This document shows, piece after piece, positions 8,518 to 8,760 of a DNA stretch of 12,908 nucleotides (position 1 is the stretch's first letter; each line of letters begins with the position of its first letter). The notes beneath the pieces were generated by a model. The model was not told where the DNA came from. It did not search any database and saw nothing but the letters and a program-made list of their open reading frames with translations. The stretch covers positions 1 through 12,908 of the forward strand of contig JAKSUP010000018.1 of the NCBI GenBank assembly GCA_024408905.1, written 5' to 3'. The stretch is from a bacterium (GTDB taxonomy: Bacteria; Cyanobacteriota; Vampirovibrionia; Gastranaerophilales; Gastranaerophilaceae). The position numbers and the translations under genes are program-made.

Positions 8518-8571
8518 CGCAAAACTTTTTTATTAAACAAATTATATATTTTGTTATATCAGTAATGTTTA

Positions 8572-8690
8572 CCTCTCCTAGGGGGAGCGAATTTTCGGAA
8601 GGGTGCAGGCGAAGCCAAACCCGTAAGTTCGAGTCGGACGTTACTCCGACGAGAACCCGAATAATTCAAGACAGGGTAGTGTGAGGGTTT
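8572..8690 (+). ncRNA. Candidate structured RNA with a three-way junction, family not recognised
   Basis: 47 of 80 bases from 8581 to 8660 are G/C, against roughly a quarter in the flanks. A closing stem GAATTTTCGG (8589-8598) pairs with CCGAATAATTC (8657-8667, one bulged base). It encloses two hairpins. The first is GGG (8601-8603)/CCC (8620-8622) with inner GGC/GCC. The second is GTTC-GA-GTCGGA (8627-8638) / TCCGAC-GA-GAAC (8645-8656), ten pairs around a tandem G-A internal loop. A 5' hairpin CTCTCC/GGGGAG (8573-8587 region) precedes it, and GTGAGGG followed by TTTTATTTTT (8680 on) could terminate transcription. It does not match the core motifs I know for 4.5S, tmRNA, RNase P or common riboswitches. 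Strand is chosen from the T-run and gene direction. It could be a free small RNA, a 3' element of glnA or a leader of the next gene. Confidence 0.55.
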
Positions 8691-8708
8691 TATTTTTCTT
8701 TTATTTTA

Positions 8709-8760
8709 TTTGGAGCTTTCTTTCTCTTTACTGTGCAACAAAGAGAAAGAAATGCCCAAA
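8709..8760. repeat. Long near-perfect hairpin (20 bp, two single-base bulges)
   Basis: TTTGG-a-GC-TTTCTTTCTCTTT (8709-8729) pairs with AAAGAGAAAGAAA-t-GC-CCAAA (8740-8760). The innermost 13 pairs are perfect and the loop is ACTGTGCAAC. No T-run follows on the plus strand, so it is not a standard terminator. The symmetric purine/pyrimidine arms suggest a dispersed palindromic repeat or a processing/stability element. Confidence 0.6.

Follow-up and report, generated by a model that had tools for sequence, protein, structure and literature searches.

A GC-rich folded element behind glnA probably belongs to a nested family of dispersed repeats in Gastranaerophilales

The GC-rich element lying behind glnA in the window (the whole stretch of DNA analysed, 12,908 nt) probably belongs to a family of self-folding, nested, dispersed repeats of Gastranaerophilales gut bacteria, whose members are short (about 80-145 nt) and non-autonomous. 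What appeared to be a new regulatory RNA becomes a genome-wide repeat family, and the best reading places the element, here called E, nearest in kind to the REP, RPE and MITE elements. The family is absent from Rfam and from the papers searched; the kind is known, and the anatomy and the insertion habit are unusual. None of the papers listed in literature searches, to judge from titles and the starts of abstracts, dealt with repeats of these gut bacteria. The case holds a warning for RNA discovery, since a dispersed repeat, too, can show strong covariation and stand out by its local GC content.

Attention had been drawn to the locus by a first-pass annotation made from the letters, which described a GC-rich patch in an AT-rich spacer closing into a compact three-way junction. 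Both descriptions hold. G and C make up 47 of the 80 bases at 8581-8660 in a window of 32.2% GC, only three of its 12829 80-nt stretches (starting at 8572, 8580 and 8581) reach 47 G/C, and free folding returns P1, hairpin 1 and hairpin 2 at the coordinates that had been drawn by hand (Table 1). The free fold of 8587-8669 has an energy of -31.8 kcal/mol (z -4.23), and 0 of 200 shuffles were equally good. Wider folds stand out less, with z -1.49 for 8572-8690 and, for 8565-8695, z -1.22 on the + strand and -1.99 on the minus strand; this slightly better showing of the minus strand against shuffles is counter-evidence to a + strand fold. The T-run reported at 8688 does begin there. The tandem G-A internal loop was correctly seen in the window copy but belongs to a minority of copies: among distinct hairpin-2 sequences it occurs in 7 of the 41 that are 29 nt long and in 7 of the 14 that are 28 nt long.

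Table 1. Parts of the element and of the repeat that surrounds it, in window coordinates
Feature	Position	Strand	Basis
E, the 87-nt core (GCGAATTTTCGG...CCGAATAATTCAAGACA), folding as a three-way junction, fixed ends	8587..8673	+	Repeat search, covariance-model matches; ends via tandem joints and occupied/unoccupied comparison
P1 closing stem, U8662 bulged	8589-8598/8657-8667	+	Free fold; 99.4% of cells paired in alignment A4
Hairpin 1, GGGU/ACCC plus GGC/GCC; interior very different from copy to copy	8601..8622	+	Fold, alignment
Junction strand GUAA, inside the core's CCCGTAAG	8623..8626	+	Comparison of copies
Hairpin 2, tandem G-A internal loop G8631-A8632 / G8651-A8652	8627..8656	+	Fold, covariation
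Left portion of outer palindromic repeat around E, ACCTCTCCTAGGGGGA	8571..8586	+	Alignment of own-genome copies, flanks
Right portion of outer repeat, GGGTAGTGTGAGGGTTTTATTTTTC, includes T-run	8674..8698	+	Alignment of own-genome copies, flanks

In its own genome E is embedded in a palindrome, CCCTCTCC...GAGGGTTTT. Beyond E, at 8714-8757 of the window, comes another and longer palindrome, CTTTCTTTCTCTTT...AAAGAGAAAGAAATG, and similar ones follow E elsewhere in the genome, so that a still larger composite may travel (the second palindrome is found after L001 to L003 and, partly, L004).

The annotation had matched E to no known family, and a search of Rfam (4227 families) likewise gave 0 matches in the window at the gathering cut-off; at E-values up to 10 every + strand match began at or beyond 8689, and the minus-strand matches over the region were far under gathering scores. 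The proposed tie to glnA did not survive. The glnA loci of the genus that were fetched numbered 30 (54 genomes have a glnA match), and the model finds E in the window's own alone. At least 600 bases are visible downstream in 28 of the 29 other loci (L189 shows just 13), and E is absent behind glnA in all 28; elsewhere it lies beside other genes. A glnA-linked RNA or riboswitch is rejected, as the site is not conserved and Rfam is silent. A switch between two folds through pairing of AACCC with GGGTT had also been suggested; the pairing occurs in the minimum free energy fold of 8565-8695, but a switch is unsupported beyond this genome's outer repeat, because GGGTTTT belongs to an arm of that repeat and not to the core in other genomes.

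Copies of E occupy 10 places in its own genome (1.71 Mb, 78% complete), 8 of them complete and 2 (L008, L010) truncated where their contigs end. Some copies have flanks in common, a left flank of ~25 bp in L002, L004 and L005 and both flanks in L006 and L007, so larger composites may account for part of the spread. Model R1, made from five copies of the own genome, found E in 22 of 57 genomes (own included), comprising 20 of the 34 of the genus together with G038 and G046 from another family; its strict filters lose weak matches, so these counts are lower bounds. Model R2, built from alignment A4 and used to score 12 candidates per genome, found E in 91 of 292 genomes of the phylum (own included; E-value up to 1e-4) and 26 of 115 genera, and all 91 are of the window's family save G038. 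Copy number and position of E change from genome to genome. A pattern scan of named genomes gave at least 116 stretches. Among the 80 pattern matches listed, 53 were titled Gastranaerophilales, Melainabacteria or Galligastranaerophilus, 21 were bacteria without finer taxon, 2 were Cyanobacteria UBA6984 and 4 had other names. Two of these four, the contigs of L091 (titled Muribaculaceae) and L136 (titled Bacteroidales), are, to judge from their translations, probably misbinned, because their proteins near-match those of Gastranaerophilales-type loci: one protein of the former is 82% identical to proteins of other loci, as are two of the latter at 85-87% and others at 56-77%. On the contig of L093, which bears the name of another phylum, the best protein identity to other loci was 34%. 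A phage origin of E was rejected, a single IMG/VR contig alone matching the pattern.

Compensatory changes in the stems, which the annotation had named as support for its reading, are plentiful. Five pairs covary across the five own-genome rows. In alignment A4 (87 matches, 79 distinct) 98.0% of cells are paired and 18 of 26 pairs show two-sided changes, in 238 cells; slid controls gave 31-59% paired and 11-40 two-sided cells, and 0 of 500 shuffles reached any of these measures. Because A4 had been fitted to the structure, hairpin 2 was excised by anchor letters alone for a structure-free test, and the result agreed. The 41 distinct 29-nt sequences were 89% paired and had 58 two-sided cells, where shuffling gave 14.6 on average (maximum 23); 40 two-sided cells were still counted, at 49% paired, when this set was slid by -1; 14 sequences of 28 nt gave 36 two-sided cells against a shuffled mean of 14.7 (maximum 23). 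Hairpin 1 is too variable for such a test: its 23-nt set, treated as a simple mirror helix, was paired no better than shuffled sequences (26% in both), and its 25-nt set reached 8 two-sided cells where shuffling reached at most 6. Over 2656 cells (110 distinct rows, A4 and A5) there were 61 G.U against 9 A.C, a count that leans to the + strand, since the model behind the alignments was itself a + strand one. The + strand fold was more stable in 84 of 108 cases and less stable in 24, and P1 was present in the free fold of 104 of the 108. Hairpin interiors vary widely in length between copies, and units measure about 80-145 nt. In six copies from G038 (L050, L051, L052, L053, L054, L056) the same hairpin modules reappear in varied combinations, so that E units look like mosaics.

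Paired changes of this sort might be mutational in origin, hairpin-templated (quasi-palindrome) correction matching the arms and slippage with gene conversion accounting for the spread, so that no dedicated enzyme is involved. Such an origin would sit well with the other palindromic repeats around E, with the recombined hairpin modules and with G038, a genome 99% complete with 17 matches and none of the five helper families sought. It is opposed by the unpaired junction letters and both ends, which are largely constant while the helices change, a constancy partly built into the scan pattern (that of CCCGTAAG in the pattern-scan set is built in, since the pattern required it), and by the excess of G.U over A.C. 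We regard it as rather unlikely.

The ends of E are fixed, GCGG... on the left and ...AAGACA on the right, and tandem copies join ...AAGACA directly to GCGG.... In G038 99-bp units stand in rows, in gene orientation, behind two genes of the ribosomal operon that we take from their translations to be rpsH and rplF, and the first unit of the array provides the G of a TAG stop codon. Insertion was examined by comparing 106 distinct flank pairs with all loci, an unoccupied repeat needing at least 10 exact bases per side; 16 pairs passed, and L076 was dropped as a tandem joint, leaving 15 valid pairs, each with a further copy of the outer repeat as its unoccupied member and not with an orthologous empty locus. 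The target was intact in 8 of the 15, with only E and its tail added, and target bases were missing or changed in 7 (5 by 1 base, 1 lacking 2 and 1 lacking 3). Half of the clean pairs (L072, L144, L121, L154) exclude any duplication; in the other four, tail bases are common with the left flank (1 in L095, 1 in L145, 3 in L171 and 4 in L082, by eye) and could be a duplication. No constant target site duplication was found across these 15 valid, non-orthologous pairs. A pattern search of the own genome, allowing up to 3 mismatches, found no outer repeat without E.

Identical inserts speak for recent spread in G161. It has 12 scored copies, 10 of them fetched, and 8 of the 10 inserts are identical; the outer repeat is also largely common to the copies, so that multiplication was of the whole composite. 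Among the 8 E inserts of G129, 6 are identical. The larger composite in G161 and in the own genome may have carried E along, which is counter-evidence to E as a mobile unit of its own. Insertion into hairpins with no constant duplication of the target can be tested on E, for which G161 and G129 supply near-identical copies. A copy in G038 (L056, 598-740) precedes what appears by eye to be the 5' end of a tRNA-Leu, and ~38 bp including that start are present on both sides of E.

E might instead be an ordinary MITE of the DDE type, a DNA transposon derivative in which the P1 arms would serve as terminal inverted repeats and the inner hairpins would be passengers. ERIC and CIR are described as bacterial MITEs, short, non-coding, largely intergenic and with terminal inverted repeats (PMC10969869). 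E is likewise short, non-coding and multi-copy, its P1 arms form inverted repeats close to its two ends, and the 1-4 shared bases of four clean pairs are readable as duplication. Against this, the other four clean pairs exclude duplication, the length of any duplication is not constant, and the inner hairpins vary in step, which terminal inverted repeats alone leave unexplained. When the 116 pattern loci were searched for the arm motifs, 94 pairs of arms lay close together, and for the left arms without a near right arm there was no right arm more than 394 nt off. A DDE-type origin is quite unlikely. The motif search of these loci showed no autonomous parent element.

E lies inside other palindromes above chance, near their 3' arm. 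From 158 matches 69 were dropped (10 lacked an end motif, 7 were short, 13 were tandem or masked and 39 were same-site copies), and a perfect helix of at least 7 bp spans the insertion within 18 nt in 15 of the remaining 89, against an expected 2.0% and a maximum of 6.8% in 500 re-pairings; around 74 of the 89 this 18-nt test found no 7-bp helix. The mean flank duplex energy was -11.7 compared with -9.1 after re-pairing of the flanks, where 0 of 200 trials came as low, and a looser test, with duplex energy of -8 or lower, separated weakly (63 of 89 against 53% expected and at most 66%). Where at least 6 bp were formed within 26 nt (26 copies), E stood no more than 2 nt from the 3' arm in 18 and from the 5' arm in 1. 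In 57 of the 89 the left flank ends in A. Many of the outer repeats are themselves multi-copy, so the palindrome cases are not all independent.

A mode of movement can be sketched from these arrangements. The folded + strand, either as single-stranded DNA at a replication fork or as RNA, would be what the mover recognises; E would enter another hairpin on its loop side, directly 5' of the 3' arm; and the resulting composites would then multiply as units, as in G161. A bolder reading makes E a mobile module that travels as a folded single strand and enters hairpins on the loop side with no target duplication, the three-way junction being the recognition signal and a putative helper taking part; it is tentative and on balance unlikely. 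We know of no description of this mode of transposition. If true, this mode would operate in a lineage whose repeats nest in one another and feed into pilin leaders.

Orientation relative to neighbouring genes was counted for 119 of the 158 copies, with open reading frames of at least 120 aa and same-site copies removed. The upstream gene within 600 bp was co-oriented in 49 and opposed in 31 of 80 (p 0.057), the downstream gene in 35 and 25 respectively, and 14 of the copies used lay within an antisense frame. In the own genome all 8 complete copies follow a co-oriented frame (frames of at least 80 aa; L006 and L007 are not independent). Of 150 distinct copies, 8 (L111, L122, L073, L114, L135, L149, L167, L173) lead on their antisense strand directly into FTLAE, a pilin motif, and so do 8 of 8 in G129 (L243-L250); in the first eight, open frames with putative start codons traverse E. 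Pilin leaders, with RKSA, RKFA, RKSG or RKFG and then FTLAE, are a hot spot for E. Four of the G129 copies (L244, L245, L248, L249) have a second short module (GATHV...RQHNKR) between two FTLA(E) motifs. At such leaders repeats of E's kind meet coding sequence, and copies found there, within operons or at stop codons have the look of insertions that the host tolerates and not of designed regulators.

An RNA that serves the host, whether a 3'-UTR stabiliser, a processing site or a terminator-linked RNA, would be multi-copy by chance and would owe its covariation to selection on the RNA. The covariation and the + strand bias are what such an RNA would show, the co-oriented upstream genes (both the 49 of 80 and the 8 of 8 of the own genome) would fit a role at 3' ends, and the copies in the ribosomal protein operon of G038 follow gene orientation. 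Yet 35 of the 57 genomes have no match, none of the 28 other genus loci has E at the same site, the orientation bias over all loci is weak, and copies lie antisense to pilin leaders, inside other repeats and in tandem arrays. We consider a host-serving RNA distinctly improbable.

A helper enzyme for the dispersed repeat was sought in the 57 genomes among five families (Y1, RT, IS110, TnpB and integron integrase). Y1 transposases occur in 25 of the 57, with none in the own genome (78% complete) or in G038 (99%), and within the genus show no association with E (12/7/8/7, p 0.73). Reverse transcriptases occur in 13 of 57; 6 of the 22 E carriers have one and 16 do not, among them G000, G008, G014, G019, G029 and G038, and again there is no association within the genus (6/1/14/13, p 0.20). 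IS110 transposases (PF02371) were found in 6 of 57 genomes, among the 22 carriers in G014 only, and TnpB in 2 of 57, over the cut-off in G018 and below it in G046, with no match in the other 20 carriers. No genome of the 57 has an integron integrase over the cut-off, and all 57 have weaker matches, as of Xer-like recombinases; G038, with none of the five families, has two Xer-like recombinase frames. As helpers, RAYT, RT, IS110, TnpB and integron integrase are unsupported by these searches and by the genus association.

It is very improbable that E serves a known mobile system as guide, scaffold or target (as TnpB/IscB omega RNA, IS110 bridge RNA, group II intron, attC, or REP of a RAYT), for although it is structured, short and repeated and its insertion without constant duplication fits several such systems, Rfam is negative, G038 has no Y1, RT, IS110 or TnpB match, and neither the integrase counts nor the genus associations of Y1 and RT point to one.

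Set beside the classes of repeat already described, the E family shares features with several. Integron attC sites act as folded single strands, form arrays and give no target duplication; E also folds as a single strand, forms arrays and has no constant target duplication, but no integron integrase over the cut-off accompanies it in the 57 genomes and the attC box letters were not found by eye. REP and REPIN elements are single imperfect palindromes of 20-40 nt with a GTAG-type foot. E resembles REP, BIME and REPIN elements in being short, hairpin-forming and dispersed, and some of its copies lie inside palindromic repeats of such sort; it departs from the single 20-40 nt palindrome in being a three-stem unit of 80-145 nt, and Y1 is absent from its own genome and from G038. 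Insertion sequences that target REP palindromes are reported (PMC1525189); E has insertion into repeat palindromes in common with them but contains no gene, and an IS110 transposase accompanies it in 1 of 22 carriers. RPEs (Rickettsia palindromic elements), as described in PMC10969869, are palindromic multi-copy elements of about 150 bp, nearly half of those counted lying in genomic ORFs. E is like them a short palindromic multi-copy repeat found partly in frame within genes; compared by description, it differs from RPEs in its bacterial lineage, its three-way junction, its fixed ends and its position inside other palindromes.

Broken copies were also seen. L092, L119, L181, L182, L080, L133 and L089 are left parts of E, broken within hairpin 1 or 2, and several of them then run into another repeat, e.g. 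GTCATGCTGAACTTGTTTCAGCATC, as if nesting went both ways.
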